A stretch of 64,000 bases of DNA from Bacteroidetes bacterium UKL13-3. Lineage in GTDB: Bacteria > Bacteroidota > Bacteroidia > UKL13-3. Below, one piece after another: positions 24,561 through 49,921 of the stretch (its first letter is position 1; each line of letters begins with the position of its first letter). A program made the position numbers and the translations under genes. Location: NCBI GenBank assembly GCA_001602415.1, contig CP012155.1:1612001-1676000 (forward strand), read 5' to 3'. The notes under the pieces were generated by a model. That model made no database searches, was not told where the DNA came from, and was given only the letters and a program-made list of their open reading frames with translations.

Positions 24561-25859
24561 ATGGTTAACTTACAAACGCTTCTTTCACTTAAAGAACACG
24601 CAGCTTCTTGGGTTGAACAATACCCTGTTGGTATGGTACTCGATTCCAATGAATGCCACTCAGCATTCGGACTTAAAAACTATGAGTTACTTATTGCTGC
24701 TGGTATAAAAGAAGAGGTACGATCAGGGGAGAAGGCTTTCGAAAAATTGAACGAATTTATTGCGCATCATAACGGAGAGTGGCTGTTTGGTTTTCTTACC
24801 TACGATTTAAAGAATCAATTAGAAGTTTTAGCCTCCAATCATCGCGATGGAATTGGTTTTCCTGAGCTTTGTTTTTTCGTTCCCCAAAAATTAATTGTGA
24901 TTGATAAAAATGGAGAGTGTATTGTTGGCAATGAGTGGATTGATGAAGTGTTGCAACAACAATTACCTGACAATGCACATAAGCCTGTAAGCCTGCAACA
25001 GCGAGTTTCAAAAGAGCAATACATTGAAGATATTGAAAGCATTAAACAACATATTATTGAAGGCGATGTTTACGAATTAAATTACTGTGTTGAGTTTTAT
25101 GCCGAGCATACAAGCATTACGCCCGACCTCATATACAATAAGTTAAGAAGCAAATCGGCTGTGCCTTTTGGAAGTTTTGTTAAATACCATCATCATTATT
25201 TGATGGGTGCAAGTCCTGAGCGTTTTTTGATGAAACAAGATAATGTGGTTTACTCCCAACCCATCAAAGGAACCATCAAGAGAGGATGTTCACCTGAAGA
25301 AGATGAGGCGCTGAAATTAGCATTGTTGCACTCAGAAAAAGAACGAGCCGAAAACCTGATGATTGTTGATTTGGTTCGAAACGATTTAGCTCGATCAGCA
25401 CAAACAGGTAGTGTGAAAGTGGAAGAACTTTTTGGGGTTTATTCTTTTCCTCAGGTCCATCAAATGATTTCAACGGTTTCGGCAAACATAAAAGAAGGCA
25501 TTAGCATATCGGAAGCAATACAGCTTGCTTTTCCAATGGGTAGCATGACGGGTGCACCCAAAATTATGTCAATGAAGTTGATTGAACAATATGAACGCAC
25601 CAAACGCGGATTGTATTCGGGAGCTATCGGTTTTATAACACCCGATGGGGATTTTGATTTGAATGTTGTGATTCGAAGTATTCAATACAATGCGCAATCA
25701 CAATACCTAAATTTCGAGGTAGGTGGAGCTATTACCTATGATTCGGTTGCCGAATTAGAATACCAAGAATGTTTACTGAAAGCCAAAGCAATGTTTGAGG
25801 TGTTGGGGGAAATGTGCAGATGTGCAGATGTGCAGATGTGCAGATGTGCAGATGTGTAG
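24561..25859 (+). CDS. pabB: Chorismate-binding aminodeoxychorismate synthase component I
   Basis: A protein of about 430 residues in the TrpE/PabB family. Motifs are QPIKGTIKRG, MIVDLVRNDLAR, PMGSMTGAPK and GLYSGAIGFITPDGDFDLNV. It aminates chorismate toward 4-aminobenzoate for folate. PabB is preferred over TrpE because it stands alone without other trp genes and has the PIKGT motif, but the assignment is by eye. The start is the ATG at 24561. The C-terminus is odd: after VLGEM the frame runs into an octamer minisatellite and encodes Cys-Arg-Cys-Ala-Asp-Val-type repeats before stopping at 25859, so the natural stop seems lost or displaced. Confidence 0.85.
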   Translation: MVNLQTLLSLKEHAASWVEQYPVGMVLDSNECHSAFGLKNYELLIAAGIKEEVRSGEKAFEKLNEFIAHHNGEWLFGFLTYDLKNQLEVLASNHRDGIGFPELCFFVPQKLIVIDKNGECIVGNEWIDEVLQQQLPDNAHKPVSLQQRVSKEQYIEDIESIKQHIIEGDVYELNYCVEFYAEHTSITPDLIYNKLRSKSAVPFGSFVKYHHHYLMGASPERFLMKQDNVVYSQPIKGTIKRGCSPEEDEALKLALLHSEKERAENLMIVDLVRNDLARSAQTGSVKVEELFGVYSFPQVHQMISTVSANIKEGISISEAIQLAFPMGSMTGAPKIMSMKLIEQYERTKRGLYSGAIGFITPDGDFDLNVVIRSIQYNAQSQYLNFEVGGAITYDSVAELEYQECLLKAKAMFEVLGEMCRCADVQMCRCADV

Positions 25860-26310
25860 ATGTGCAGATGTGTAGATGTGCAGATGTGCAGATGTGCAGA
25901 TGTGCAGATGTGATGATGTGAAAATGTGAGGGTGTGCAGATGTGCAGATGTGATGATGTGAAAATGTGACTATGTGACGATTTGCAGATGTGAAAATGTA
26001 AGGATGTGACGATTTGCAGATGTGAAAATGTGAGGGTGTGCAGATGTGCAGATGTGTAGATGTGATGATGTGAAAATGTGACTATGTGACGATTTGCAGA
26101 TGTGAAAATGTAAGGATGTGACGATTTGCAGATGTGAAAATGTGAGGGTGTGCAGATGTGCAGATGTGCAGATGTGATGATGTGAAAATGTGACGATGTG
26201 CAGATGTGAAAATGTAAGGATGTGACGATTTGCAGATGTGAAAATGTGAGGGTGTGCAGATGTGCAGATGTGCAGATGTGCAGATGTGAAAATGTGAGGA
26301 TGAGTAAATG
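25812..26310. repeat. Octamer minisatellite of about 62 units
   Basis: Tandem 8-bp units of form NTGNNNAT. Variants include GTGCAGAT (most common), GTGTAGAT, GTGATGAT, GTGAAAAT, GTGAGGGT, GTGACTAT, GTGACGAT, TTGCAGAT and GTAAGGAT. Blocks of about ten to fifteen units are themselves repeated in the same variant order, for example GTGATGAT-GTGAAAAT-GTGACTAT-GTGACGAT-TTGCAGAT, so there is higher-order duplication. The first 48 bp are inside the pabB frame. Open frames here on either strand are low-complexity products of the repeat. The rest of 25860-26406 shows nothing else. Confidence 0.93.
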
Positions 26311-26406
26311 AGTTGGGGGCTTGTTTATTCGTGATTTTTAACAATTATTTTGTGTTTTCGTGTACTAAAAACGGCTAAAAGAAAAGGTGTCCCCCCTAAA
26401 AAAGAT

Positions 26407-30038: not shown

Positions 30039-30109
30039 TTTGCATCCTTTAATCGTTAATTTTCCGGTTAAAGGATGCAAAATGATCTTCTATAACGTAG
30101 TTATAGCCA
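30039..30109 (+). other. attI-like site, copy 1: inverted repeat plus GTTATAGCCA cassette start
   Basis: Inverted repeat TTTGCATCCTTTAA / TTAAAGGATGCAAA (30039-30081), then CTATAACGTA and GTTATAGCCA (30100-30109). The whole arrangement, including the following AATGGTAGG, recurs at 40221-40300 right after the tyrosine recombinase gene. GTTATAGCCA is the exact reverse complement of TGGCTATAAC at 34803-34812, the other end of this cassette. The site assignment is inferred. Confidence 0.55.
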
Positions 30110-30310
30110 ATGGTAGGGCGACCGTTCAAAAGACAACTGACCAACCAAAATATAAACATTAAAACAAAGACAAACCATTTTGACAGGTGACCAACATACA
30201 GACCATATTTCAACTGGACAGCAACTGAGCCAACACTCATTGCCGACCATTCTGTATTTTTTATTTTTCTCACCACACATTTTTTTAAATTCAATTTTTG
30301 CCAGCCGCAT

Positions 30311-30374
30311 AAATGCCACATTTGGTTTTGCCCGACACACAAGCCGACTCTTCGCAAAACCAAAAGAGCCATTT
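30311..30374 (+). repeat. Covarying hairpin P1 (CACATTT / AAAAGAG family)
   Basis: Outer stem AAATG / CATTT, constant arms CACATTT (30317-30323) and AAAAGAG (30362-30368), inner stem GGTTTTGC / GCAAAACC, and a loop containing CACAAGCCGAC. It lies about 90 nt upstream of the three-gene operon. The rest of 29993-30466 shows no gene. Confidence 0.7.
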
Positions 30375-30466
30375 TACCTCTTACAAATTACTATCTTTGA
30401 CATAGGCTTTAAAAACGAAATTATTTTTAGACTATTGAACGCTATTACTCATAATAACAATATTTA

Positions 30467-31720
30467 ATGAATTCATCTATAATTCCATTAATCGAAAACA
30501 ATGTCACTTTTTCGCCCTACTATTTTTATAATGATTTTATAAAAAAAGTGGCTGATTTCTATCAAAATCACGAAAAAGAAGAAAAAATTCAATTTCGATT
30601 AGCATTAGATTCTGATTTTGATTTTATAGGAAAGAATTTCTTTATAGACCCAATTAGCTTGCCTCTATTGTTAAGCTTGAGTCTACAATTAAAAAACTAT
30701 CACAAATCCCCTTTATCCCTTTTTCTTTCTAATAATTATGGCACTGTAAATATCATAGAATTTCTTTATCGTTCAGATTTTTTTCATTTAGTAGGTGATA
30801 ATAAAAATCCAACATTTCCATTAGGGAAAAACATATTTGATTATAATGAAGCATACCTAGGTGGATTTAAAGGGCAAGGTCAAAGAATTGAACATAAGAT
30901 AAGATGTTATTCCATTCTAGACGATAACCTACAATTAAAATTAAATAACATATTGGACGAAGAAGCTCAAAGAGACTTTTTAGTTGAACATTATACTTAC
31001 AAGGTTAAAGAACATTATGGTATACTTTTGAATGAGAATGATAATACAGGAAATTATACAAATGATTTCGTAGAAATTTTAGCCGAGTTAATTACAAATG
31101 GTGTTTTACATTCAAAGTCGGATACATTTTCCCTAATGTTTTCAGACAAATACAAAACTAAGTTCTCAATCTCTGACAGTGGTATTGGATTATATGATTC
31201 ATTAGATAAAAAAAACAACAATCATTTTTACAAAAAATTTATCTTGTTAAATAGTTTGTCCCAAACATTCAATTTAAAAGTTTCGGAACATATAAAATTA
31301 TCGCTTCTAGCAATATTTGAAACACTTTTCTATTCTATGTTAAAGGATAGAAAAGGCCTCTTTGATTTAATGTGTAATGTGGTAATAAATTGTGGTGGTT
31401 ATTTTAGACTTCATAATAACAATGCACAAGTAATAATTTCATCGAGAATGCTGAATGATATTCAGGTTTTGTACGAAACACGTGCATTAATTTTAAACAC
31501 ACACAATGCTATACTTTTTGGTCAAATACCTGAAAAGGATTTTATAATAAAAATGCAAGAACTGGAAGCAAAAAGTAGGCAGCAGATTATACAATTAGCC
31601 ACATCTATCTTTAAAAAATTCTCACAAGACGTCAAGTTTTCTTCTATTAGATTATTCGAAGTGAAGTTTAGAGGCGTCCATATTGAAGTTGAAATACCTA
31701 ATTCAAATAATACCAAATGA
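30467..31720 (+). CDS. GHKL-type ATPase protein, first gene of a three-gene cassette operon
   Basis: A 417-residue cytosolic protein. Residues about 195-250 carry the GHKL (HATPase) signature: N-box AELITNGVLHS (Glu207, Asn211, His215) and G1 box ISDSGIGL (Asp237, Gly239, Gly241). There is no phosphoacceptor His domain, no receiver and no membrane segment, so this is not an ordinary sensor kinase. It may be a stand-alone ATPase or an anti-sigma-like kinase. The N-terminal 150 residues (IDPISLPLLLSLSLQL) suggest an alpha/beta STAS-like domain, but weakly. It overlaps the next gene by 4 nt (ATGA). Composition is AT-richer than the flanking core genes, consistent with transfer. Confidence 0.75.
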   Translation: MNSSIIPLIENNVTFSPYYFYNDFIKKVADFYQNHEKEEKIQFRLALDSDFDFIGKNFFIDPISLPLLLSLSLQLKNYHKSPLSLFLSNNYGTVNIIEFLYRSDFFHLVGDNKNPTFPLGKNIFDYNEAYLGGFKGQGQRIEHKIRCYSILDDNLQLKLNNILDEEAQRDFLVEHYTYKVKEHYGILLNENDNTGNYTNDFVEILAELITNGVLHSKSDTFSLMFSDKYKTKFSISDSGIGLYDSLDKKNNNHFYKKFILLNSLSQTFNLKVSEHIKLSLLAIFETLFYSMLKDRKGLFDLMCNVVINCGGYFRLHNNNAQVIISSRMLNDIQVLYETRALILNTHNAILFGQIPEKDFIIKMQELEAKSRQQIIQLATSIFKKFSQDVKFSSIRLFEVKFRGVHIEVEIPNSNNTK

Positions 31721-32739
31721 TTATTTCCAAAATTGTAAAAAAAAATATCATTTATTATAAGTTACACGCTGAACAAACAGTCACAGGTACATTTTTAGAT
31801 GAACCGGGTAGTGGGATTTTTGAGGAGATACTAACTCATACAACAATTGACAAACTAGTTAGTGACTCAGAAACAATGTCCCCAAAAGAATTTATACTAG
31901 TTCTCGATTTTAGTAACATTAAGGGATGCCAAAATAACATCAAAAAGAAAATTATTCAACTAATACATAAATTTAAATATGTCGTATTAACAAACATCAC
32001 TAAAAAAATAATTGAAGATATTGAAGTTGGAATTTTTCAAAATCCGAACAACATCGAATCAGATGACTGTTTTCTCAAATTCATTTTATCTAATGAAACT
32101 ATTGAAGAAATTGATTTAGATATTGAAAGTATTTTCATTGATGAATTCTTAGTAAGACTAAAAAAGCATGTTGAGCCGAGCGTTGAAGGAAAGGATATTG
32201 TTCACGACTCCTCCTCTGTATATCTCACATCTTATATAAATATCAAAAGCTTTATTTCTTTGGAAAAAAGTTTCTTCATTTATTCAATTTATCATTTGGC
32301 AATAAAGATTAGAGACCATTGGAAAATTGAATTGAAATCAGAAATTATAAATCAAAAACCTATTTTAATTTGCCAAAACTTGAATAGTTCATACATAACT
32401 TCAGTACTTTCTAGTTTGTTGAAATTAGACATTTTGATACTTGACAAAATAGGTCCCATAAATAAAATTTACAGTACACTTGATAGAAAAATAGAAGAAA
32501 GTAGAAATTACATTGTAGTTTCTGATCTTGTTTGCCTTGGCACTGAAATAAAAATTGCTAAAAGTATAATTGAATTTTTAGGGGGTATATATTTAGGTAA
32601 TGTTTCTATTATTAGAGTTGAAACTATCCTAAAAAAGGATAAATCATACCTTGATACAGAATGTGTATTCAACATTACAAATGAGAATAATAAAGAAATT
32701 GAATATGAAATTAAGACGGCATTAAATATTGTAAGTTAA
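31717..32739 (+). CDS. STAS/PRTase-like protein, second gene of the cassette operon
   Basis: A 340-residue cytosolic protein. Residues about 60-115 (EFILVLDFSNIKGC) look like a STAS or other Rossmann-like strand-helix unit. Residues about 225-310 resemble a type I phosphoribosyltransferase core. The PRPP-loop region is IVVSDLVCLGTE (Asp270, Gly275, Thr276), in which one acidic residue and the TG pair of the classical DDxxTTG motif are replaced. It may therefore bind nucleotide or PRPP without full catalysis. The fold call is by pattern only. The start overlaps the upstream stop by 4 nt and the stop overlaps the next ATG by 1 nt (TAATG), so the three proteins are translationally coupled. Confidence 0.7.
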   Translation: MIISKIVKKNIIYYKLHAEQTVTGTFLDEPGSGIFEEILTHTTIDKLVSDSETMSPKEFILVLDFSNIKGCQNNIKKKIIQLIHKFKYVVLTNITKKIIEDIEVGIFQNPNNIESDDCFLKFILSNETIEEIDLDIESIFIDEFLVRLKKHVEPSVEGKDIVHDSSSVYLTSYINIKSFISLEKSFFIYSIYHLAIKIRDHWKIELKSEIINQKPILICQNLNSSYITSVLSSLLKLDILILDKIGPINKIYSTLDRKIEESRNYIVVSDLVCLGTEIKIAKSIIEFLGGIYLGNVSIIRVETILKKDKSYLDTECVFNITNENNKEIEYEIKTALNIVS

Positions 32740-34586
32740 TGAAAAAAGCAATTATACATATATCCGACTTACACGTAAGCCTTCATGAGGATTTAAAAGG
32801 TAATCCACCTAAAAAAGGTATAAATTCTTGGCTTACAACAAAGCCCAATGATAATATATCCTTAGAATTTGTAAATGCCTTTATAAATTATATCAAAGTC
32901 AAATTTTCAGCTGATTATGAATTTACATTATTAGTTACCGGAGACATTACAAATGAAGCCGATGAAAAAGAGTTTGAATATGCTATAGAGTACTTAAAAA
33001 AAATAACAGCTGAATTAGATATTAAAAAATCGAATATAATGTTATTGCCAGGTGACCATGATGTAAATCAAACTGACAATAAAGAGGCCTTTAAAATTGG
33101 TAAAACAAAAGGTGATTTAAGAAATTCTTATGAGTACTATGAAAAGTATGACAAGTTTTCTTCATTCTATTATAAATTTTTTGAAAGTAATTTCAATAAA
33201 GAAAAAGCAATAATCAATTTACTTGAATATGAAGAAGAAAAACTTCTATTAATGGGTTTAAACTCAAATTATTTAATTGATTATGAAGGAGGCAATGGAT
33301 TTATTGAAACAGAAAAACTCCGTATCGAGTTAAAAGAACTTAATTCAAAATATTCCGATTATTCTAAAATAGTTTCATTTCATCATAATATTTATTCATC
33401 ATATGAAAATAAAGGAACTGGTCAATGGGATTTAAATAATAGAAAAGATATACTTGCAATATTTAATCAATTTGGTATTAAATGTATTCTTTATGGAAAC
33501 GAACACACCAGAGATTCGAAATTTTTCGGTTCAAAAAAAGAAGACTTAATGTATAGATGCGATAGTGGTTGCTTTGCATCGAAAGGTGCAATTCAGCCCT
33601 CTTTTAAAGTCTATGAACTTGAACATAGTAAAGAACAATTTAAAATTAAAAACTCTCTAATACTTTTACAAAATGCTAATAAACTTGATGAGCAAGATTT
33701 TGGCAAATGGGGTATTCAAGATAACTATGATTTAAATGAGCTAGAAGAAATAATTTTAATCGAATCACCATCCAAAGCTTTATTAGAAATAAACCTTTTA
33801 GATAAGTTAATTGAAGAAAAAGTAATTGAAAACAGCCCCGTCTTTATAGAAGATACTAACGTCTATACTAACAATTATTATAAAGAAAAACTGTTTAACA
33901 TTGTAAAAAACAAAAAAATATTTCATTCTGGTCACTTTCATTGGAGTGAAACATCAAGGGCTCATAATTGGATTGATATATCAAAAATATTGAATGATAA
34001 GGATGATCTTTATGATGCTAAAAATGCAATAATAGATGTGATTGAAATATGTAAATTATACAATAAATTCGATTTTATAATAGGTTTAGGGATTGAGGGA
34101 AATATTCTTTCAACAAGGGCATCGATCAAGTATGATAAACCATATTCTTTTCTACCATACTCATATCGTTATGATGAACATAATAAATACGAAAAAGTAT
34201 TAAACTTTAAAAATGATAATATATCTAAATCAGTACTAATCATTACAGATGTCGTAAATGATGGAAGAACACTTAGAAAGTTAATTAATAAGAGAGAACC
34301 AGAATTCTTTAAAAATGTAAATAAAATTATTGTTGTTTCTCTCTTTTATACAGGTAGTGACAACTCAAATTCAACACAAATATTAAACACGGTTGAGGGT
34401 AATTATGACGACCAAAATGACCATTTAGAACACAGAATTGAATATTATTATGTTTTGAATATGAAAGTTGAGAAATGCCCTTATGGAGCAAATTATGAAA
34501 CAGAATGCATTATAGTTAGAGATGGATTAGGTTGTGTACATAATTTTTACGACAAAGCTAAAGCGAATGAAAAAAAATCAAAATAG
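32739..34586 (+). CDS. Metallophosphoesterase-phosphoribosyltransferase fusion, third gene of the cassette operon
   Basis: A 615-residue protein. The N-terminal half (1-290) is a calcineurin-like phosphoesterase with HISDLH (Asp10, His12), LVTGDIT, LLPGDHD, SFHHN and YGNEH. The last replaces the first His of the usual GHxH. The C-terminal half (about 390-600) is a type I phosphoribosyltransferase. Its PRPP loop is IITDVVNDGRT (Asp504 to Thr511), close to the DDVxxTGRT form, with Thr in place of the first Asp. The fusion suggests a pathway that makes or breaks a phosphorylated nucleotide or sugar signal. It is the last gene of the operon and is followed 10 nt later by hairpin P2 and then the cassette end. 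Confidence 0.78.
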   Translation: MKKAIIHISDLHVSLHEDLKGNPPKKGINSWLTTKPNDNISLEFVNAFINYIKVKFSADYEFTLLVTGDITNEADEKEFEYAIEYLKKITAELDIKKSNIMLLPGDHDVNQTDNKEAFKIGKTKGDLRNSYEYYEKYDKFSSFYYKFFESNFNKEKAIINLLEYEEEKLLLMGLNSNYLIDYEGGNGFIETEKLRIELKELNSKYSDYSKIVSFHHNIYSSYENKGTGQWDLNNRKDILAIFNQFGIKCILYGNEHTRDSKFFGSKKEDLMYRCDSGCFASKGAIQPSFKVYELEHSKEQFKIKNSLILLQNANKLDEQDFGKWGIQDNYDLNELEEIILIESPSKALLEINLLDKLIEEKVIENSPVFIEDTNVYTNNYYKEKLFNIVKNKKIFHSGHFHWSETSRAHNWIDISKILNDKDDLYDAKNAIIDVIEICKLYNKFDFIIGLGIEGNILSTRASIKYDKPYSFLPYSYRYDEHNKYEKVLNFKNDNISKSVLIITDVVNDGRTLRKLINKREPEFFKNVNKIIVVSLFYTGSDNSNSTQILNTVEGNYDDQNDHLEHRIEYYYVLNMKVEKCPYGANYETECIIVRDGLGCVHNFYDKAKANEKKSK

Positions 34587-34596
34587 TATACACACA

Positions 34597-34663
34597 GTTG
34601 TAAGCACATTTGCAAGCCGCACAAGCCCAAGCACAGACCAAAGCTTGCAAAAGAGCTTGCAAC
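34597..34663 (+). repeat. Covarying hairpin P2
   Basis: Outer stem GTTGTAAG / CTTGCAAC (one T.G), constant arms CACATTT (34605-34611) and AAAAGAG (34649-34655), inner stem GCAAGC / GCTTGC, and a loop containing CACAAGCCC. It lies immediately after the three-gene operon. Confidence 0.7.
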
Positions 34664-34802
34664 TCTCCAGCCTAGACAAAATTGAATTAAAAAAAATCTC
34701 CTCCCCTTCAAAAAATAAAAAATACCCAACACACAGCCGTCACTCAATGACGCAGAAACTCAATATTGACAATGGTTTGCAAGGACGGACAACAAGAGCC
34801 AC

Positions 34803-34940
34803 TGGCTATAACAGCGGTCTTGCTCTATAGCCGTTAACGTACTAAAATGAGCAGTTTTCTTCGCATTTATTTTTATCTTGGCAGGACAAATTAACCTTCC
34901 GTAGCCGGCACCTGCGTCAGGCCGCGAAACGTTAGCGGTC
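34803..34940 (+). other. attC-like recombination site 1
   Basis: It starts TGGCTATAAC, complementary to the cassette start at 30100, and ends AAACGTTAGCGGTC. Between them is an imperfect inverted repeat with GCGGTCT (34814-34820) pairing AGGCCGC (34919-34925). The length of about 130 bp and the AAC / GTT ends resemble the large attC sites of chromosomal integrons. Confidence 0.6.
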
Positions 34941-35105: not shown

Positions 35106-38100
35106 ATGAAATTTAGTGCAGGATATGCAAATACTAACAATAATTTCAGCATTCTAAACCTTTCAAGACAGAAAGAGTTAAGTGTAGAGCATTTACAAAT
35201 AATTTGCGTATTACAAAATATACTCCACAGAGGAACACCGACAATACCTTCCGACTACATAATTAAAAGTCTACAAATTGACAAATTTGAAATCAATGAC
35301 AGCTTTCTACCTTTAATTTCAAGACAAAATCCTAATTGGAATTCTTCAATAAAAGGCTCGTCAGACGGATATAATCCAGCGTTAGAATTTTATGAAAAGT
35401 TAGACCACTTTTTTGCTGACTACCCTTTCATCAAACAGCTAATATTACCCGAAGCATTCATTACTGAAATTCTACCCGATGTTTCTGTGGAGTTCGTTGC
35501 TCAACAAGTAGACTTCTATTTGCCACAAGCTAATTTAGTTATTGAGATAGATGGTTCTCAACATCAACAAGAAGGTGCCAAAGACGCAAAAAGGGATTTG
35601 CATTTCAAACAAAATGGAATCTCGACCGTAAGAATTCCGACAGTTGATTTGAGAAAGGAAACACCTTTACTAAAACAAAAAATAGAAGAAATAAAAACCT
35701 ATCTTGATAAATCAAAAGCTTTTCTCAAATATACTGTTGTTGATTATCAAAAACATCAAACGGAGTTACAACTAACAAGTATTTGTCGATTCCAGACTTT
35801 AACCCTTCAATTACTCAAATTCGGTTATTTATCTTTATCAGATTCTGAATGGCGATTCAATATTTTAAATGAGCACAAAAGTGACCTGACCATTGCCGTT
35901 GAAGATTTACAATTGTGGTTGGAAAATTTGCACTCACTTCAAAACATTTCTTTTATAAAACCAAAAATTGTTTTTTCCACCGCTAACGCGGTGAACATAG
36001 ACTTTGATATTTTAAAACGCTATGATGACAGTTGCAAAAATAGTAACTCAATTTTTGTAAGAACTGATTATCAAGATGGAAACAATTATTTTATTGTCAG
36101 CACAGCCACTCCAATAGACTATCAGTTAAAAGAAAAAGAAGCCGAAAAGACATTAGAATTTTTCCTAAAGAACATATTTAATAAAAATAGTTTCAGACAA
36201 GGACAAATAGCAATTATAACAAACTCCCTAAACAGAATCGATACGATAGGATTATTGCCAACCGGATCTGGTAAATCTATATGCTACCAATTGACAACTC
36301 TTTTGCAACCGGGTGTTTGTTTTGTTATATCGCCACTTAAATCTTTAATGCTTGACCAAAAACAAAACTTGGATAAGATATTTATTAAAAACACTGCATT
36401 TATATCAGGAGAAATATCGGCAAGCGAGAAAGAAACTATACAATTAAATTATGCAAAAGGAAAATACTTGATTGTTTGGATTTCGCCAGAGCGACTTCAA
36501 ATACAAACATTTCGCAAACATCTGAGCAATGTAAATGCCAACTTTAAAATTAACTATGCAGTAATAGACGAGGTTCATTGCCTTTCTGAATGGGGACACG
36601 ATTTCAGAACATCGTATTTAAACTTAGCTAAGACTGTAAAAGAATATTGTCCAAACACCAAATTTTTAGGATTGACAGCCACCGCATCAAGCCGAGTTCA
36701 CAAAGACATAAAGGCTGAGTTTGGTGTAAAAGATGAAAACATAAAATCTCAAATTGATTTTAATCGCCCCGAACTAACTTTTAAGGTTGTAAAATGTGCA
36801 TCAAAGAAAAAATATGATGCAACAAAAGTAATTTTAGAAAATTTCAATGCTAAATCAAATTTTCTTGAAACTAAAAAGGATACTTCAAAATCTGCAATCA
36901 TATTTACACCAAATGTAACTTGGGATTTTGGTTGTTTCGATTTGAGCAATAAGCTAAATGGTATTTATCCAGCAAAGGCAAATTTTTATTCGGGAGAAGT
37001 TCCTAAAATAAAAGATGATAACGGGAACAAAGTTGATTGGGTTCCTCCAAAGGAATTTAAGGATTACGAAGAATATAAAAAGCAAGTTCAGACCGATTTC
37101 AAAGCTGACGTTTTTCCGATTTTAACCTCGACTAAAGCTTTTGGAATGGGTATCGACAAGCCTAATATTAATCTAACGATACATTACGGCATATCTGCTT
37201 CGATAGAATCAACCTACCAAGAGGCAGGCAGAGCAGGTAGAGATGAAGATAAAAAAATTAAAGCAAAATCTGATTGTTATATTCTCTTTTCAGATGAAGC
37301 GGAAGATTTCCCAATTCACGTTTTGGAGAACAAAGACACAACGGTTGAAGAAATCGTAAAAATACTTGCAGATAAAGGGTTTAACGGAAATGACATTTGC
37401 AGAATGTTGTATTTCTATAAAACAAATTTTAAAGGATTAGATGCGGAGTACAAATCAATAGTAGAAGTTTCTAAGCACTATAAAGAGAATGAAAGCGTAG
37501 AAATAATTTGGAATTTTAGCACAAAACCACAAATTGAAAATGCTATTTACCGTCTTTCGCTACTTGGCGTTATTAAAGATTACACAGTTGACTTTGCAGA
37601 TAAAAAGTTTGTAGTTCACTTCGGCAAAGTAGACGATAATTCAATTAAAGCCAATCTTGAAAACTACATTAAAAAATATAACGACAAGTTTGATATAAAT
37701 ACTGAACTGGATAAAATAGAAGAAGATACTATTTCAAAAAAATGTATTCGCTTCTTATTAAAATGGATTTATGAGAACATTGCGTATGAGAGACGACAGG
37801 CTTTAAAAGGCATTGCAGAGCTATGCAGAAATTACGATGAGAATGACCACGAGCAAAGTTCAAAAATCTTCAAGAAAAATCTAGTTGCTTATTTTGAAAT
37901 AAATGACATAACAATCATTTTACAGCACATTGCAGATAATCCCGATGATTTTCCTCGATGGTTTGAAGTCTTCTATAAAAAGATGCGAAAGGCAGATAAT
38001 ACCGTTCAAGATTTAGGCAGAATTGACAAAGAAGGATATACAGAACTAAAATTTAAACTTCAACGCTTCTTAGAAAGTTACAGAGATAATCCTGGACTAA

Positions 38101-38417
38101 ACTTAATAAGTGGTTTCATTCGTTTGGTACTTAATGAGTTTAACGACCAAGACGGAAGGCCAAGATTTGAAAGTGCTTTAAAACAAATAAATTTGTTTGA
38201 GCAATCCCAACAACTGGAGATACTTAAAAAACTTTTTGATGCAAGAAAATTGGATAAAGGACAAAGAACAGAACTAAGTAAATCTCTTTTGAAATATTTA
38301 TCAGAAGACTTTGCCGAATTAATTTATGAGCAACTTCAAGACGAAAGCAGTCTGACAGTTTTGCTTCAAAAACCATTAAAAAAATTGAAACAACTAAACG
38401 AAGATATTTATGGATAA
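35106..38417 (+). CDS. RecQ-family helicase with N-terminal DUF559/Vsr-like nuclease domain
   Basis: A 1103-residue protein. Residues about 130-185 form a PD-(D/E)XK-type endonuclease like DUF559/Vsr: VDFYLPQANLVIEIDGSQH (Asp136, Glu147, Asp149, His153). The helicase follows. Walker A is LLPTGSGKSICYQL (Lys390), the DEVH box is VIDEVHCLSEWGHDF (488-491), motif III is GLTATAS, and motif VI is YQEAGRAGRDEDKK. The C-terminal 350 residues are helical with no HRDC domain recognised. QINLF near residue 1030 resembles a sliding-clamp-binding peptide. Nuclease-helicase fusions in accessory DNA are often antiphage effectors. That role is inferred. It overlaps its partner gene by 8 nt. Confidence 0.82.
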   Translation: MKFSAGYANTNNNFSILNLSRQKELSVEHLQIICVLQNILHRGTPTIPSDYIIKSLQIDKFEINDSFLPLISRQNPNWNSSIKGSSDGYNPALEFYEKLDHFFADYPFIKQLILPEAFITEILPDVSVEFVAQQVDFYLPQANLVIEIDGSQHQQEGAKDAKRDLHFKQNGISTVRIPTVDLRKETPLLKQKIEEIKTYLDKSKAFLKYTVVDYQKHQTELQLTSICRFQTLTLQLLKFGYLSLSDSEWRFNILNEHKSDLTIAVEDLQLWLENLHSLQNISFIKPKIVFSTANAVNIDFDILKRYDDSCKNSNSIFVRTDYQDGNNYFIVSTATPIDYQLKEKEAEKTLEFFLKNIFNKNSFRQGQIAIITNSLNRIDTIGLLPTGSGKSICYQLTTLLQPGVCFVISPLKSLMLDQKQNLDKIFIKNTAFISGEISASEKETIQLNYAKGKYLIVWISPERLQIQTFRKHLSNVNANFKINYAVIDEVHCLSEWGHDFRTSYLNLAKTVKEYCPNTKFLGLTATASSRVHKDIKAEFGVKDENIKSQIDFNRPELTFKVVKCASKKKYDATKVILENFNAKSNFLETKKDTSKSAIIFTPNVTWDFGCFDLSNKLNGIYPAKANFYSGEVPKIKDDNGNKVDWVPPKEFKDYEEYKKQVQTDFKADVFPILTSTKAFGMGIDKPNINLTIHYGISASIESTYQEAGRAGRDEDKKIKAKSDCYILFSDEAEDFPIHVLENKDTTVEEIVKILADKGFNGNDICRMLYFYKTNFKGLDAEYKSIVEVSKHYKENESVEIIWNFSTKPQIENAIYRLSLLGVIKDYTVDFADKKFVVHFGKVDDNSIKANLENYIKKYNDKFDINTELDKIEEDTISKKCIRFLLKWIYENIAYERRQALKGIAELCRNYDENDHEQSSKIFKKNLVAYFEINDITIILQHIADNPDDFPRWFEVFYKKMRKADNTVQDLGRIDKEGYTELKFKLQRFLESYRDNPGLNLISGFIRLVLNEFNDQDGRPRFESALKQINLFEQSQQLEILKKLFDARKLDKGQRTELSKSLLKYLSEDFAELIYEQLQDESSLTVLLQKPLKKLKQLNEDIYG

Positions 38418-39099
38418 TATAAACGCTAAGCAACTAAACAATACTATTGATGATATTGTGAAAGAAGCAAAGACTCTAAAAAATGTTGTGGAAATGCAAA
38501 AAGAAATTGTATCCACCAAAAGCGATATTCAAAAATCTTCAGCTAATATCGAAAAATTGCTCGCAGAAGAAGCGAAAAACACAAAGATGCTTGGCGACCT
38601 GATAATGGAGAATAATTCATTTATTCAATCAGTTAATGTATACAATGAAAAAATAAGACAGCAAAACGAGTTGTTTCAAAAAGAATTGAGTGCATTAATT
38701 GAAAAGCAACGTAATGACTTGAAGGAAGAACACAATAAATTCAATGCTTCCAACAATGAACTTCACAAAAAACTTTTGACCGCATTAGAAACTAAGTTTG
38801 ACGAATTTCACAAACAGAATAAAGAATTTCAAAAAGAGCTTGACGGTTCAATTTTCACTCGATTAGAAAAACATAAATCGGACATTCAAATCGAAATCCG
38901 AAATGAAGGCACACAAATTCAAAGAGCATTTGAAAATACAATCACGAACCAGTTTAATAACTTTGAAAATAAGCAAAATGAAAAATTTGCGACCATAACA
39001 AAGAATCAAGAAAAGAATAAAACTATTTCAATAATCAGTTTAACAACTTTGATAGCGACATTAATTCTATTGATAATTAAATTCTTTGTGCTTCAATGA
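38410..39099 (+). CDS. Coiled-coil protein with C-terminal membrane anchor
   Basis: A 229-residue protein. Residues about 1-200 are almost wholly charged heptad-like helix rich in Lys, Glu, Gln and Asn (for example FQKELSALIEKQRND), and a single C-terminal membrane segment (about 205-227, SIISLTTLIATLILLIIKFF) ends the chain. There is no signal peptide, so the coiled coil should stay in the cytosol, tail-anchored in the inner membrane. It overlaps the nuclease-helicase gene by 8 nt and is co-transcribed with it. It may tether or sense for the helicase. No family was recognised. Confidence 0.75.
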   Translation: MDNINAKQLNNTIDDIVKEAKTLKNVVEMQKEIVSTKSDIQKSSANIEKLLAEEAKNTKMLGDLIMENNSFIQSVNVYNEKIRQQNELFQKELSALIEKQRNDLKEEHNKFNASNNELHKKLLTALETKFDEFHKQNKEFQKELDGSIFTRLEKHKSDIQIEIRNEGTQIQRAFENTITNQFNNFENKQNEKFATITKNQEKNKTISIISLTTLIATLILLIIKFFVLQ

Positions 39100-39317: not shown

Positions 39318-39371
39318 CCGAAAAGCAGTGATGACTATCCGAAACACGCAACAGATAAAATAGAATCGTTT

Positions 39372-40184
39372 GTGCGGTGGATGCGCTCGAAACGGTACAG
39401 CGAAAACACGATTAAAACATATTGTGATGCGCTTAAAACATTTTTAAAATATTACAGTGCGAAAGATATTGAAGATATTACCAATAAGGATGTAATTGAT
39501 TACAATAACGACTACATCCGCAAACACAATTATTCTGCCTCGTTTCAAAACCAAACGGTAAATGCCATTAAGCTTTTTTTTAAAACGGTACTCAACTCCA
39601 AGATGGAAACAGAAACCATTCACAGACCAAAATCGGGAAAACAGCTACCTAATGTTTTGAGCAAAGAAGAAGTAAAGAAAATACTGGAAGCCTGCGCCAA
39701 TTTAAAACATAGAGCAATGCTTACACTTATCTATTCATGTGGACTTAGGCGAAGCGAATTGCTAAATTTAACCTTTGAACATGTTGACGCCAACCGTAAA
39801 CTACTCATCATAAAAAGCGCTAAAGGAAATAAAGACCGTATCACTCCGCTATCCGAAAAAGTGTTGGCACTGTTACGCGACTATTATAAAGCCTACAAAC
39901 CCCAAAAGTACCTATTTGAAGGTATGTATGGAGGGCAATATGATGAACGAAGTTTAGCGAGCGTACTTAAACGAGCTGTAACAATGGCTAATATAAAAAA
40001 ACCGGTTACACTTCACTGGTTGAGGCACAGCTATGCTACACACTTATTGGAAGCCGGAACTGATTTGAGGTATATTCAAGAATTATTGGGTCATAGCAGA
40101 AGTGAAACAACGGAAATATATACTCATGTTAGTACTAAGAATATCCAAAATATTAAAAGCCCATTTGATGATTTGGATATGTAA
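39372..40184 (+). CDS. Tyrosine recombinase/integrase, integron-integrase-like tail
   Basis: About 270 residues with a SAM-like N-terminal domain and a complete catalytic set: Arg in SCGLRRSELLNL, Lys in SAKGNKDR, HWLRHSYATHLLEAG (His, Arg), and LGHSRSETTEIYTHV (His, Tyr nucleophile). The C-terminus IKSPFDDLDM resembles the KSPLD tail of integron integrases, but the roughly 20-residue IntI-specific insertion before the HxxR box is absent. No good ATG is in frame further upstream. GTG at 39372 or ATG at 39381 must serve, so the N-terminus may be slightly truncated. It is followed 36 nt later by an attI-like site and then a cassette read in the same direction, as in 'reverse' integrons. Confidence 0.85.
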   Translation: MRWMRSKRYSENTIKTYCDALKTFLKYYSAKDIEDITNKDVIDYNNDYIRKHNYSASFQNQTVNAIKLFFKTVLNSKMETETIHRPKSGKQLPNVLSKEEVKKILEACANLKHRAMLTLIYSCGLRRSELLNLTFEHVDANRKLLIIKSAKGNKDRITPLSEKVLALLRDYYKAYKPQKYLFEGMYGGQYDERSLASVLKRAVTMANIKKPVTLHWLRHSYATHLLEAGTDLRYIQELLGHSRSETTEIYTHVSTKNIQNIKSPFDDLDM

Positions 40185-40220
40185 AATCGAAAGAATAGCT
40201 TTGATAGATAAAGATGCACT

Positions 40221-40290
40221 TTTGCATCCTTTAACCGGGATATTTCCGGTTAAAGGATGCAAATATTGCTTCTATAACTTAGTTAGTGGC
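40221..40290 (+). other. attI-like site, copy 2
   Basis: Perfect 18-bp inverted repeat TTTGCATCCTTTAACCGG / CCGGTTAAAGGATGCAAA with a 7-nt loop (40221-40263), then CTATAACTTA and GTTAGTGGC (40282-40290). It matches the copy at 30039-30109 in order and spacing. It lies between the recombinase gene and the MGMT-like cassette. Confidence 0.6.
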
Positions 40291-40757: not shown

Positions 40758-40789
40758 ATTAGCGGACGAAAGAACCACAGCACCTAACA

Positions 40790-42340
40790 AATAGCGCTTA
40801 AACGAAGTGTACCCACTTCGATTTAAGCGTGTGTTGACTGAAGCGTGACGGTTTTTTTTGCGAGTTATGTGTTTTGAATGTTTGGGATTATTTTTGGCTG
40901 CTTGGTGGGTGTATTTTTAGTTGGTGCAGCTTTACTTTTTTAGCGCTTTAATGCGCTTTTTTTGTGCTTTTTGTTTTGCAGGCTGGTAACTTTTGTGTGT
41001 TGTTTTAGGTTTTGGGCAATGCGCGGCCTAGTTGCCTGTTTTAGGCAATTAAGGTTATGCAATATTTAACGCTTGCTGGCGGGCTTGGTGTAGCAATGCC
41101 AATGGTGGTGCATTGGCTTCAAAACTCATTAAGCGTATCATTACTCCGGTTTTACAGCATGGGCATTTTTCTATGTCTATTCCATGCTTTTGCAACAGCA
41201 TTTGTTGCCACGTTATTAATGCTTGTTGTCGTTTGGGTATTATACCCATTTGCATTTGTTGGGTGCGCAACTTGGGTTTGTTACGGCTGGCCAATATGCC
41301 GTAATGCCGTATTTTTCTGACCCCTGCTGGTAGTATATGCATACTAAACCTGCGCAAAAACTCTACCCCGTTTAACTCCATTACTTTTTGCTGCCCTCCA
41401 CTGCGGTAATCTTTGTAAGTAAACTTTACCGTTTGGTTATTTACATCTAACAAGCGATGATTGCTTATGGCTATTTTATGGCTGTAGCGTCCTAAGTATT
41501 CTATTACTTGCTTTGGGCCGGCAAAGGGTTGTTTGGCATACACTACCCAACTTTTTTGATACAAAATTTCGCGCAAGGTTTTGTTTAGCTCTTGCTTTTG
41601 CGAGGTGAGCAGTTGCCTAAATCCTTCCATAAATTTTGCCCGATAAACTTTGCTTAATGCTTTTACCGGAAACAAAAAATCGCGTTTGTATTTACTCGGT
41701 TTCCAAAAACCTGCACGGCTTACTCCTCCTGATGGTACTATCATGTGTACGTGCGGGTGTAAACTTAAGTTTTGCTCCCAAGTGTGTAACACACTTATCA
41801 TACCTACTTGTGCGCCTAAGTGTTTTTCGTCTGCTGCAAATGTTTTTATGGTATCGCTGCTGGCTTTAAACAATTGTTTGCACTCTTGCTTTGATAATAC
41901 TACTGGTAAGGTTTGGTTTTTTTTGATACTGGGTAGTTTAATGGCTGCATCTTCCATACCAAATATTCTGAACCAAAAACGTAATGCAAAAACTGCATGC
42001 TTAAAGTAGCTGATGGATTTTCCTTCTACCTCGGTGCTTCTGTAAAAATAAGCGTTTAACTCATCAATACTTATGTGATGAGGCAACCTATTAAAGTGCA
42101 AGGCTACGTAAGCCAACGAGCGACCATAGTTGGTTAACAATCCTTTGCTTAATTGTTTTACCATTACCTGCTCTAAAAAATAATCGTAAGCTTGGCTAAA
42201 GCCTATTACCGATAACTTTGCTTGATGTACAATTGTTGATGTTGTGTTTTTTTTAATGTCATAACTTTATTGTTTTGATTTTATTTTTTACAAAGTTTAT
42301 CCTATTTTGCAATGAAATGCTACCGCAGGTTTAGTTCAAC
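40790..42340 (-). mobile_element. IS91-like (HUH/Y2) insertion sequence, copy A, internally deleted
   Basis: Bounded on the left by AAATAGCGC after CACCTAAC, and on the right by TTTAGTTCAAC before an attC-like arm. The left end, downstream of the transposase 3' end, has a subterminal hairpin: CGCTTAAA and CGAAGTG pairing CACTTCG and TTTAAGCG. This is the form expected of the origin end of rolling-circle elements. In transposase orientation every copy abuts GTTA. One fused coding frame lies inside (41055-42164). Related fragments are at 43089, 46727, 49596 and 50215. Confidence 0.75.
41055..42164 (-). pseudogene. In-frame fusion of a tyrosine recombinase N-terminus to an IS91-family transposase
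   Basis: A 369-residue open frame. Residues 1 to about 100 (MVKQLSKGLLTNYGRSLAYV up to LPVVLSKQECKQLFKA) are the SAM-like N-terminal part of a tyrosine recombinase. From about residue 110 the sequence is an IS91-type Y2 transposase with the HUH motif LHPHVHMIVPSGG and a Tyr region YLGRYSHKIAI, ending with a CxxC pair (CPCCKTG). The C-terminal catalytic half of the recombinase and the N-terminal zinc region of the transposase are missing, so an internal deletion joined two neighbouring genes. It is probably inactive, although the reading frame is intact. Confidence 0.75.
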
Positions 42341-42468
42341 AGCACCTACAAGAAATTGGCGGTACAGTGGTTAAATGAAGTTTTGTGCTTCGTATCAAGT
42401 TCTGTGGTGGCAGACAGTTTTCGTCTCCGAAATCGCCAACTTCTTGTAGCTGCGAAACGTTAGCGGTA
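42341..42468 (+). other. attC-like site 3, right part
   Basis: CTACAAGAA-A-TTGGCG (42346-42361) pairs with CGCCAA-C-TTCTTGTAG (42434-42449), giving 15 of 16 positions with one A.C mismatch. It ends GCGAAACGTTAGCGGTA. GTTAGCGGTA (42459-42468) is the exact reverse complement of TACCGCTAAC at 43079-43088, the other end of the cupin cassette. It is separated from its left core CACCTAAC by the IS91-like copy A. Confidence 0.65.
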
Positions 42469-42519
42469 ATTATAAAGACGACACAAAGACACGAACATTT
42501 AATTTAAAAATAAATAAAC

Positions 42520-43077
42520 ATGCCAACAAAAGGACAAATTTTAACCAATCCAGACTCTGGAGACATTTATGAGTTTTTAGAAACAGCTAAAGACACCAAT
42601 GGACAAAGAGTTACCATGAAAATGACTCTTAAATCAAAAGGTAAACTGGTGCCTAATCATTTCCATGCATTACAAGACGAACATTTTGAAGTTGTTTCAG
42701 GTAATTTGACAATATTGCTTGACGGCAAGAATCAAGTTTTGGCGCAAGGAGAAAAAATGACGCTACCGAAAAACAAACCACACAATCATTACAATGCTAG
42801 CAATGAAACTGTTATTTTAATTCAATCTGTTACACCTGCCTTAGACTTTGACTATCTATTAGAAAATATTATAGGACTTACCATTGACGGAAAAATGCCG
42901 AATGGAAAAGCAGGATTAATTCAGGAATTGGTAACGTTAAAATACTTGGACAGCAAAAGTTACCTTGCCGATATTCCGCAAGGACTGCAGAAATTGCTAA
43001 TGAATGTCGTAGGGCCTATTGGACGTATATTTGGGTATAGAGCAATTTACAAGAAATATTCGGACATAGAAAAATAA
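42520..43077 (+). CDS. Cupin-domain protein
   Basis: A 185-residue protein. Residues about 30-115 form one cupin barrel: MKMTLKSKGKLVPNHFHALQDEHFEVVSGNLTILL has the metal-binding pattern HxH-x(4)-E with a conserved Gly, and KNKPHNHYNAS supplies the second motif His. Cupins include dioxygenases, isomerases and sugar- or oxalate-binding proteins, and the substrate is not readable. The C-terminal 70 residues are helical with a hydrophobic segment around MNVVGPIGRIFGY. It is the single gene of a cassette bounded by exactly complementary 10-bp ends. Confidence 0.8.
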   Translation: MPTKGQILTNPDSGDIYEFLETAKDTNGQRVTMKMTLKSKGKLVPNHFHALQDEHFEVVSGNLTILLDGKNQVLAQGEKMTLPKNKPHNHYNASNETVILIQSVTPALDFDYLLENIIGLTIDGKMPNGKAGLIQELVTLKYLDSKSYLADIPQGLQKLLMNVVGPIGRIFGYRAIYKKYSDIEK

Positions 43078-43088
43078 CTACCGCTAAC

Positions 43089-43293
43089 AAATAGCGCTTA
43101 AACGAAGTGTACCCACTTCGTTTTAAGCGTGTGTTGACTGAAGCGTGACGGTTTTTTTTGCGAGTTATGTGTTTTGAATGTTTGGGATTATTTTTGGCTG
43201 CATGGTGGGTGTATTTTTAGTTGGTGCAGCTTTACTTTTTTAGCGCTTTAATGCGCTTTTTTTGTGCTTTTTGTTTTGCAGGCTGGTAACTTT
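43089..43293 (-). mobile_element. IS91-like element, copy C, origin-end fragment
   Basis: About 205 bp nearly identical to the left end of copy A, inserted directly after TACCGCTAAC. It is truncated where an IS3-like end (TGTAGGCATCCCC) begins. The transposase part is absent. Confidence 0.8.
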
Positions 43294-43356
43294 TGTAGGC
43301 ATCCCCAAAAATAGTACGATTTAAAAGTAGAAAATAATTCTAACTTTAAATTGTAA
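43294..43356 (+). mobile_element. IS3-family left-end fragment
   Basis: TGTAGGCATCCCC and the following 50 bp are identical to 49922-49986, where the same sequence continues into an IS3-type orfA start. Only the terminal 63 bp remain here. Confidence 0.65.
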
Positions 43357-43416
43357 GGGCGACCGTTTAACCATCAACATTTGTGCTCACAATGCACGAC
43401 AAAAGCCAACCCTCTC

Positions 43417-43477
43417 AAAATTAAAAGAGCTGTTTTATCATCACACATGCCGACCCAAAAACAGCACATTTAATTTT
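43417..43477 (+). repeat. Covarying hairpin Q2 (arms swapped)
   Basis: Outer stem AAAATT / AATTTT, arms AAAAGAG (43423-43429) and CACATTT (43465-43471), inner stem CTGTTTT / AAAACAG, and a loop containing CACACATGCCGACCC. Every stem differs from Q1 yet pairs perfectly. It lies just beyond the stop of the Fur-family gene. Confidence 0.72.
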
Positions 43478-43488
43478 ACCCAACCGCA

Positions 43489-43866
43489 CTACAAACATTC
43501 CGGACAAAGACCAGAAAGGGTAAAGTTCATTTCGCTGACTTTATAATTCTTAGGCAACTTAAATGTCGGTTCAACATCGTCAATACAAGTAACAGCTTTA
43601 CATTTTTGACAACTGAAATGAATATGGTGGTGGTGGTGCTTTTCTGAACAAGAATGACAACTGGCATATTTAACCACGCCATCTACATTAATAATTTTGT
43701 GAATTACACCTTCGTCTAGCAATCTTTCTAATACACGATAAATCGTAACCCTATCGCACAATCCTAACAAAGACTTTTGAATTTCAGAATGCGACAACGC
43801 TATTGGAGAACCAGTTATCAATTCTTGAATTTCAGTTTTTGCGGCAGTATTTCTTACTAACTTCAT
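43489..43866 (-). CDS. Fur-family metalloregulator, probably Zur-like
   Basis: A 125-residue regulator with an N-terminal winged helix (SHSEIQKSLLGLCDRVTIYRVLERLLDEGVIHKI) and a C-terminal dimerisation/metal domain. The latter has a His run (CSEKHHHHHIHF) and two CxxC pairs (CQKC, CPEC) that bind structural zinc. Fur-family proteins repress on binding Fe, Zn or other metals. Zinc is favoured here because the divergent genes encode a zinc-chaperone-like lipoprotein and a COG0523 GTPase. A palindrome at 43883-43901 lies about 17-36 nt upstream of its start, so it probably regulates itself as well as the divergent operon. Confidence 0.85.
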   Translation of the reverse strand: MKLVRNTAAKTEIQELITGSPIALSHSEIQKSLLGLCDRVTIYRVLERLLDEGVIHKIINVDGVVKYASCHSCSEKHHHHHIHFSCQKCKAVTCIDDVEPTFKLPKNYKVSEMNFTLSGLCPECL

Positions 43867-43882
43867 TATTTTTTTAAGTTTT

Positions 43883-43937
43883 AACGCAATAATGTTGCGT
43901 TTTTAAATGTAATAATTATATTTGCAGCATTGTTGCA
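43883..43937. promoter_or_regulatory. Divergent promoter with two metalloregulator operators
   Basis: Operator 1 is AACGCAATAATGTTGCGTT (43883-43901), a perfect 7-5-7 palindrome. Operator 2 is TGCAGCATTGTTGCA (43923-43937), whose reverse strand GCAACAATGCTGC matches operator 1 GCAATAATGTTGC at 11 of 13 positions. Between and overlapping them is a plus-strand promoter: TTG (43895-43897), 19 nt, then a perfect -7 box TATATTTG (43917-43924). Both operators cover promoter elements, which fits repression. Confidence 0.7.
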
Positions 43938-44073
43938 TTAAGCTAATTATTCTTTAATGATATATTATAAAAAACAAAAAAGACTTTAACTAATAGAATG
44001 CGTTGGTCAATCTCACGCTTAAAAGTAAATCAGTATTGCATTCAATATTAAAACTTTAATCAAATAAAAAAAA

Positions 44074-45267
44074 ATGAAAAAATTATTTTACTTTATGGTT
44101 ATTGCTGTTTCAATTACAGCTTGTAAAAAGGATGATGAACAAACAGAGCCTCAAGCTTTATTAAAAGAATATAGGTTTCTTAGGATGATAGTTTCTGATG
44201 AGCAAACGAATCAAATCACTTACCTTAACTTATATGACGATACCAAAATTAACTTTGAGACAAAATTTCCTAAATCGGCTGTTTACACCTCTGGATCAGG
44301 AAGATTTGCCGCCATTGCACATACAAATAATAATTTAGCAGAAACGTTTGACTCAGGCTTAGAATTTCACGGTAACCATGTAGATACGAAAGGTACTCCA
44401 AAATTTGGATTGATGGTAAGTGAATCTCTTAAGCCCACCCATTTTAAAGCAAAAAATAATGAACTTTTATTCTTTAATGATGGGGATGCATCACTTTCGT
44501 ATGGTTCAGAATCAAGCATTCACACACAAGCTAAAATGACAACTATTAATACTGGGTTAATTGCTCATCATGGAGCTATGGCACATTTTTCGAATGGAAC
44601 TTATGCAGTTACATCAAAAGATAATTCAGTTAAGGGGCCACTTCCTGAAAGAGTAATTATAATTGATAAAACAGGCAAAGAATTACATAAATCAACAATT
44701 GCAACCACTGGTATTCATGGTAGTGCCACCGATGGGGAAAATGCTCTTTTTGGATCTGCTAGTGGGATTTTAGTTATTTCGTCTGCTGGAGCCCAACGAT
44801 TAATTCCTTATCCAAATGATTTTGGTACCGCTTGGTTTGGCACTATATTAGAAACTTCTATAGGCAATAAATTCATCGGTTATACTGCTGCTAAAGGAGC
44901 TTATTTGATCGATATTTCTGCAAATACTATATCCCCATTGATGGTGAATACCGATATCATGCAGATTAAAACCAGTTACGATTTATCAAAACTTGGTGTT
45001 TTATTACATTCAGGTTTAATGAAAATTATTGATTTAAGAACAAATAAAACTGATTTTGAACAAAACATTACAGAGGCAACAGATAAATCATCAACTCAAA
45101 AACCACAAATGGTGATGAGCAATAGGTATATCTATATAGCTTTACCTAAATCGGGTGAAATTCAAAAAACACGAATTGCTCAGCCTAGTACAGCTACTAA
45201 AATAAAAGTAAGTGCAAATCCCTATCGCATAGCAATTATAGGACACGAATCTGACGAATCTCATTAA
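44074..45267 (+). CDS. Beta-propeller lipoprotein, AztD-like zinc chaperone candidate
   Basis: A 397-residue lipoprotein (signal with lipobox ITAC, Cys about 17). The rest is a repetitive all-beta sequence consistent with a seven- or eight-bladed propeller, for example SGRFAAIAHTNNN, HHGAMAHFSNGTYAV and IHGSATDGENALFGSASG. His and Asp residues in blade loops (LEFHGNHVD, AHHGAMAHF) could bind metal. This layout resembles AztD, a periplasmic zinc chaperone, but identity is by pattern only. The gene lies downstream of the two-operator promoter and 111 nt upstream of the CobW GTPase, forming a zinc-starvation-type operon. Confidence 0.6.
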   Translation: MKKLFYFMVIAVSITACKKDDEQTEPQALLKEYRFLRMIVSDEQTNQITYLNLYDDTKINFETKFPKSAVYTSGSGRFAAIAHTNNNLAETFDSGLEFHGNHVDTKGTPKFGLMVSESLKPTHFKAKNNELLFFNDGDASLSYGSESSIHTQAKMTTINTGLIAHHGAMAHFSNGTYAVTSKDNSVKGPLPERVIIIDKTGKELHKSTIATTGIHGSATDGENALFGSASGILVISSAGAQRLIPYPNDFGTAWFGTILETSIGNKFIGYTAAKGAYLIDISANTISPLMVNTDIMQIKTSYDLSKLGVLLHSGLMKIIDLRTNKTDFEQNITEATDKSSTQKPQMVMSNRYIYIALPKSGEIQKTRIAQPSTATKIKVSANPYRIAIIGHESDESH

Positions 45268-45378
45268 GTTGTTTTGCTAATAATTAATCTGTGTTGTTCA
45301 GATAATACTCAATATTAAAGTTTTTTTTAACTGTAATTTTTCATTAAACCCTATTTCACTGCTTAAACATTTTATGTT

Positions 45379-46593: not shown

Positions 46594-46616
46594 CTTGAAA
46601 ATGTGCCACCGCTTTT

Positions 46617-46677
46617 GGTGGCACATTTGCTTTTTTGCAAACGCAAAAAGCCAAACAAAAAAAGCAAAAGAGCCACC
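46617..46677 (+). repeat. Covarying hairpin P4
   Basis: Outer stem GGTGG / CCACC, arms CACATTT (46622-46628) and AAAAGAG (46666-46672), inner stem GCTTTTTT / AAAAAAGC. GTGCCACC at 46603-46610 can alternatively pair with GGTGGCAC, so two exclusive hairpins are possible. Confidence 0.65.
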
Positions 46678-46726
46678 AAGCCAACGCACTGGGACAACAG
46701 TGGACAAGAAACAACGAAGGCATAAC

Positions 46727-47652: not shown

Positions 47653-47702
47653 ATTGTATATAGACGGCAGAATTGAATAACATAGATAAACAATAAAAAA
47701 TA

Positions 47703-47915: not shown

Positions 47916-47994
47916 TTGAGAATGCAAGTTATAACTTGTTTTTTGTAACTCTGTTAACATTTTATTTTGTATAAAAATCTAATTAACAAATCAA

Positions 47995-49920: not shown

Positions 49921-49921
49921 T

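Follow-up and report, generated by a model that had tools for sequence, protein, structure and literature searches.

Bacteroidetes bacterium UKL13-3 carries a three-gene operon whose best overall explanation is a rare, undescribed antiphage module of three components, borne as a single gene cassette and with its third protein, P3, as the effector; taken as a whole, this explanation has about an even chance of being right. The operon lies on the plus strand at positions 30467-34586 of the window, the 64,000-nucleotide stretch of DNA analyzed here (GenBank CP012155.1, positions 1,612,001-1,676,000). It encodes a stand-alone GHKL-type ATPase (P1), a protein with a phosphoribosyltransferase (PRTase)-like domain (P2), and a calcineurin-like phosphoesterase fused to an orotate-PRTase-like domain (P3). 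Because the genes travel as one mobile cassette and recur beside antiphage genes in unrelated bacteria, the triple is probably an immune system. On this contextual evidence a defence role is favoured, and, given defence, there is a good case for P3 as the effector.

The three genes are tightly packed on the plus strand. P1 (30467-31720, 417 residues) overlaps P2 by four nucleotides in an ATGA junction, and P2 (31717-32739, 340 residues) overlaps P3 (32739-34586, 615 residues) by a single nucleotide in a TAATG junction. P2 comprises an N-terminal alpha/beta domain and the C-terminal PRTase-like domain; P3 comprises the phosphoesterase (approximately residues 1-300), the PRTase-like domain (approximately 385-560) and a C-terminal CPYGx2Yx3C tail. 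Re-reading the DNA places the open reading frames (ORFs) and both junctions where an earlier sequence-only reading had put them, and the motifs it quoted in all three proteins are borne out, with key residues invariant across homologue alignments. The G+C content of the operon is 27%, compared with 36% for the window. No model in Pfam, PADLOC or NCBIfam covers the whole triple, none of the three proteins matches a PADLOC family, and no name for the triple appears in any library or literature set searched. Its sole tie to a tested system is the likeness of the P3 phosphoesterase domain to antiphage DS-9A, which falls well under the family cut-off.

The same ordered triple is found in five genomes: that of the window, G372 (locus L031), a Flavobacteriales metagenome-assembled genome (L033), G868 (L048) and G079 (L032), with gaps between genes of -4 to +10 nucleotides in all. 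G372 was first found through a full-length P3 at 44% identity, and then through the whole triple (L031: 7753-8991, 8993-9991 and 9991-11808). The G079 triple, from another class of the same phylum, shares about 20% identity with that of the window. In samples of approximately 396 genomes from the phylum, P1 (E<=1e-6) occurs only in its own genome, G372 and G079; P2 (E<=1e-3) occurs only in G372 and G079, its own genome not being listed in the sample used for it; and full-length P3 occurs in its own genome and G372, with G079 matched through both P3 domains. The chance of two such coinciding genome pairs is about 1e-5. Far from never occurring together, homologues of P1, P2 and P3 share the same genomes. 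The earlier proposal of a single unnamed system made up of these genes is well supported by conserved order and coupling in the five genomes, strict co-occurrence in the samples and the lack of a curated family for the set. P3 and P1 have no match in plasmid and phage records, alignments of P2 and of P1 likewise drew a blank against viral sequences, and a scan of genome contigs returned nothing for P3 as a single query and one match for the alignment. A P2 match in G952 proved spurious, its reading frame containing five stops, and the widespread matches that extend over the phosphoesterase domain only, which make up most of L003-L030, were discounted for that reason.

The four other triples keep the order and coupling of the first, and defence genes stand beside the triple in three of the five genomes' loci. 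At L031 a tyrosine integrase lies directly upstream, with PDC-M01A/B (Septu/PtuA-like, 2e-194) and HamA (2e-142) as further neighbours. The L032 triple stands between type I-B cas genes (Cas8b, 2.8e-101) and an E1-like ThiF protein, and that of L033 between a TIR-NTPase upstream (TIR-STAND PDC-S60, 7e-61) and a second GHKL ATPase downstream. The neighbours at L048 are an integrase and an SNF2/N6-methylase protein, typical of conjugative elements (integrative and conjugative element (ICE)-like). This setting is the pattern expected of a defence system, short of proof. The antiphage role suggested by the sequence-only reading has good indirect support: three of the genomes place the triple in a defence island and a fourth in a mobile element, a Mu-like phage contig contains a P3 by itself, and the phosphoesterase domain resembles that of DS-9A.

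Which component would do the harm? P3 residues 2-257 match the phosphoesterase of NCBIfam NF053862 (DS9_1_antiphage) at 8.6e-23, and the DS-9A phosphoesterase model matches all six members of the P3 family (best 2.7e-24); in a profile search against the PDB, this domain matches 2xmo at 2.1e-11. The metal ligands D10, H12, D69, H107, D108, H216 and H256 are invariant in the six homologues. DS-9A requires its catalytic residues for defence (PMC13092281). The correspondence with DS-9, a DefensePredictor system, is partial: the P3 phosphoesterase aligns with the DS-9A metallophosphatase domain, but its score of 80.9 bits is far under the 420-bit cut-off, and where the DS-9 partner is a HAD phosphatase, here there are a PRTase fusion, a GHKL ATPase and a PRTase-like protein. 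Neither P1 nor P2 matches a HAD family in Pfam or NCBIfam. DS-8 (NF053861) has a related metallophosphatase domain, matched by P3 at 6e-10, but consists of one protein that includes a NACHT NTPase, and no NACHT domain is present in the triple.

The second domain of P3 matches Pfam Pribosyltran at 4.7e-4 (under the cut-off) and orotate PRTase structures at 0.002, over residues 390-520 or so. Its phosphoribosyl pyrophosphate (PRPP) loop, TDVVNDGRT, had been described as near-intact, and is so: D504, G509 and T511 are kept in all six homologues, and the D-x4-G-x-T pattern of type I PRTases is present. The weak profile match to orotate phosphoribosyltransferase (PyrE) spans approximately residues 390-515. 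Unlike PyrE, P3 lacks the first Asp of the DD pair, is fused to a phosphoesterase and scores far under the PyrE cut-off. The resemblance to orotate PRTases is also what would be expected if the triple were an acquired accessory set that serves nucleotide salvage or the metabolism of a nucleobase derivative and plays no part in conflict. That explanation is very improbable: the triple has a very patchy distribution (one of 64 genomes of its own family), sits in mobile contexts and adjacent to defence genes, is not accompanied by metabolic genes at any of the loci read, and pairs P3 with a PRTase-like protein, P2, whose own loop is altered.

The P2 loop reads SDLVCLGTE, and D270, G275, T276 and E277 do not vary among five homologues. 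In PRTases a Thr normally occupies the last position, where it holds the 5'-phosphate; all five homologues have Glu277 there, so none has an intact 5'-phosphate loop ending in Thr. Ordinary PRPP catalysis by P2 is therefore unlikely, judging from this acidic residue in the loop. The P2 of the window has no match in Pfam, NCBIfam or PADLOC. In a Foldseek search of the PDB, its low-confidence predicted model (predicted local distance difference test (pLDDT) 59) has top matches that are nearly all PRTases (HPRT, OPRT, APRT and PurR; best E 1.3e-3, probability about 1), which points, at low confidence, to a PRTase fold for the C-terminal domain. The sequence-only reading had called P2 a PRTase-like protein with a degenerate PRPP loop; the altered loop stands, but the PRTase assignment comes from this model, not from sequence.

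P1 has the ATP-site motifs intact: an N-box (E207/N211), a G1 box (D237-x-G-I-G) and a second glycine motif (G297), with E207, N211, D237, G239, G241 and G297 invariant in an alignment of five homologues. It has no histidine-kinase H-box domain, and its AlphaFold2 model is of fair quality (pLDDT 78.7). A stand-alone GHKL protein of this kind adjoining P2, whose N-terminal secondary structure looks STAS-like by eye, might instead belong to a partner-switch regulator, in which P1 would be an RsbW-like GHKL kinase, the P2 N-terminal domain its STAS-like partner and P3 an enzyme metabolizing a signal, for control of a stress response rather than phage defence. This is improbable. No P2 member has a Pfam STAS match, no STAS domain is among the listed Foldseek matches of P1 and P2, no sigma factor or regulator gene is nearby in the loci read, and the settings are defensive and mobile. 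STAS domains in P1 or P2 were an idea reached by eye only, supported by neither Pfam nor Foldseek, and were rejected.

RqlHI/PsyrTA, a RecQ-like helicase with a PRTase domain and a DprA-like partner, offers a precedent: a PRTase-fold domain within a conflict-type operon whose toxicity is kept under control. RqlH joins its PRTase to a helicase, whereas P1-P3 include no helicase. The PRTase domain of RqlH can be genotoxic and is restrained by the partner (PMC4670107). By analogy, could P3 be a toxin and P1/P2 its antidote, in an addiction module that stabilizes the cassette or element carrying it? Such modules are common cargo of gene cassettes and ICE-like elements, and the RqlH case provides the model. 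Against it, a P3 homologue occurs without P1 or P2 at 7194-9773 of the Mu-like phage contig L041, adjoined by a bacterial PH-domain protein, a phage repressor and phage transposition proteins, so an antidote is not obligatory there; and three components including an ATPase would be large for a toxin-antitoxin module. This alternative has a rather low probability, and it is compatible with defence, the two not being mutually exclusive. The lone P3 also suggests that P3 can act alone.

From the domains, the conserved residues, the coupled triple, its strict co-occurrence and its mobile and defensive settings, a working model of defence can be outlined in which the proteins would form a complex and a phage would provide the trigger. 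P1 would bind, and probably hydrolyze, ATP as a sensor or switch, and P2, probably non-catalytic, would serve as a ligand-binding or scaffold subunit. Together they would make up the sensing and gating part, which on infection would release or activate P3, whose orotate-PRTase-like and phosphoesterase domains would perform nucleotide or PRPP chemistry that halts phage growth. Since P3 pairs a domain of a PRPP-handling class with one of a class that cleaves phosphoesters, it might use up or convert PRPP or a nucleotide, or it might both make and remove a signal. That PRPP or nucleotide chemistry is the harmful step is a tentative proposal. The fullest version would be an antiphage system of a categorically new kind: a GHKL ATPase, together with a ligand-binding subunit derived from a PRTase, would control a phosphoesterase-PRTase effector whose action either uses up PRPP or synthesizes or degrades a nucleotide, and a XerA-type integron-like platform in Bacteroidota would spread the set as a cassette. 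Taken as a whole, this version is less likely than not.

Several observations weigh against the antiphage explanation. PADLOC has no model for P1, P2 or P3. Only five triples were found in all, so the neighbourhood statistics are thin, and at L048 the P3 reading frame is interrupted by a stop codon close to residue 534. Pfam HATPase_c matches four of the five P1 family members at 0.011-0.037, all under the curated cut-off, and the P1 model has no PDB match by Foldseek at E<=0.001; P1 is labelled GHKL on its motifs for these two reasons. The predicted model of P2 is weak at its pLDDT of 59, and a profile comparison of P2 with P3 finds the correct register at P = 0.05, which is not significant. 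Of the metal ligands expected in a calcineurin-like phosphoesterase (DxH, GD, GNHD/E, H and GHxH), which is what the sequence-only reading called P3, most are kept, but the metal site is altered at two positions, with N106 replaced by D and H254 by N in four of the six P3s. The second metal site may, given these replacements, work differently.

The mobile unit itself is a cassette of 4831 bp on the plus strand (30100-34930). It begins with GTTATAGCCA at 30100, and the next junction, CGTTAGCGG, follows at 34931. The 10-bp complementary ends noted in the sequence-only reading are real: the R'' box TGGCTATAAC, 127-128 nucleotides ahead of junction 34931, is complementary to the start GTTATAGCCA at exactly 10 of 10 positions, and the two are now identified as the R'' box and start of an integron-like gene cassette. 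The hairpins it reported are likewise present (30042-30078, 30311-30374 and 34596-34664). It had not recognized the integron-like cassette with an attI-like hairpin. That hairpin, GCATCCTTTAA-N15-TTAAAGGATGC at 30042-30078, lies directly ahead of the cassette start and recurs elsewhere in the genome, both ahead of first cassettes and, at several sites, immediately behind a XerA-like integrase; it looks like an attI site. An attC-like site at the cassette end runs from R'' to R' (34803-34935, plus strand). Its single-strand fold has z = -0.02 against shuffled sequence, compared with z = -2.1 for the site of L052. The same start/R'' rule, taken as 9 or more matching bases spaced 125-130 nucleotides from the junction, also holds for 11 contiguous cassettes in three other arrays (L061 with five, L062 with four and L063 with two), against 0 or 1 in shuffled loci.

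A XerA-like tyrosine recombinase or integron integrase is encoded downstream at 39327-40184 on the plus strand (NF040815, 233.8 bits, cut-off 220; TIGR02249, 212 bits, cut-off 265), with a second attI-like hairpin 3' of it at 40224-40260, and is a possible mobilizer of the cassettes. Integrase matches to TIGR02249 in this genome skip model positions 179-237, which by position are the region of the IntI-specific domain; the integrase thus appears to lack that additional domain. Like IntI-type integrons, the carrier has a cassette start complementary to an R'' box about 128 nucleotides ahead of the next junction, and contiguous arrays beside an integrase. It differs in its XerA-like integrase lacking the IntI domain, in an attI-like hairpin 3' of the integrase, in R boxes that depart from GTTRRRY, and in the attC fold of the triple's cassette, which is not significant. 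IntegronFinder demands the IntI-specific domain (PMC9668308), and for Bacteroidetes proper the IntegronFinder 2.0 survey of 2022 lists a single complete integron, that of Salinibacter (PMC9024848). Integrons in Bacteroidota are rare, not unknown, since a review counts the phylum among those bearing them (PMC8618304). Phage-resistance functions are known from gene cassettes more generally. The integron-like platform of this Bacteroidota chromosome (window 39327-40290; L061, L062 and L063), with XerA-like integrases, a 3' attI-like hairpin and contiguous arrays, is possibly a finding in its own right.

Between the triple and the integrase lies a separate, defence-like cassette at 35106-39099 (plus strand), which encodes a RecQ/DpdF-like helicase with an N-terminal DUF559 domain and a 229-residue ORF (PADLOC DpdF 8.5e-107 and PsyrT 3.9e-62; Pfam DEAD and DUF559). 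DpdF is usually part of Dpd DNA-modification systems. The RecQ-like protein has no PRTase domain match in Pfam. It was rejected as a fourth component because its gene lies past the junction at 34931 and beside no other triple. About 20 kb from the triple is a type II CRISPR-Cas locus (4665-12100), with a Cas9 of 1359 residues followed by an array of approximately 40 repeats with a period of 75-77 nucleotides. Beyond the integrase, repeated 300-nucleotide units and copies of an IS91-family transposase break up the cassette region (40769-50000); one copy lies at 41058-42164, and 47047-47346 repeats part of it exactly. At another locus (L054, approximately 2200-4100, minus strand), an IS110-type transposase-like gene, recognized by eye, apparently interrupts a cassette site at its palindrome. 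The window also contains 81-bp tandem units, each with an inverted repeat TTCGCGCTAACGT..ACGTTAGTGCGAA (50847-51494), and a long tandem array of 8-bp units (25740-26400).

If the triple protects against phages, it would add a form of defence that runs on phosphoribosyl chemistry and is governed by a GHKL ATPase, possibly through a new signal or by PRPP depletion, and would offer a second context in which to study the DS-8/DS-9 metallophosphatase. The cassette suggests that this Bacteroidota genome uses integron-like cassettes and an unconventional integrase to carry operons of several genes that are close to 5 kb long and probably serve defence.

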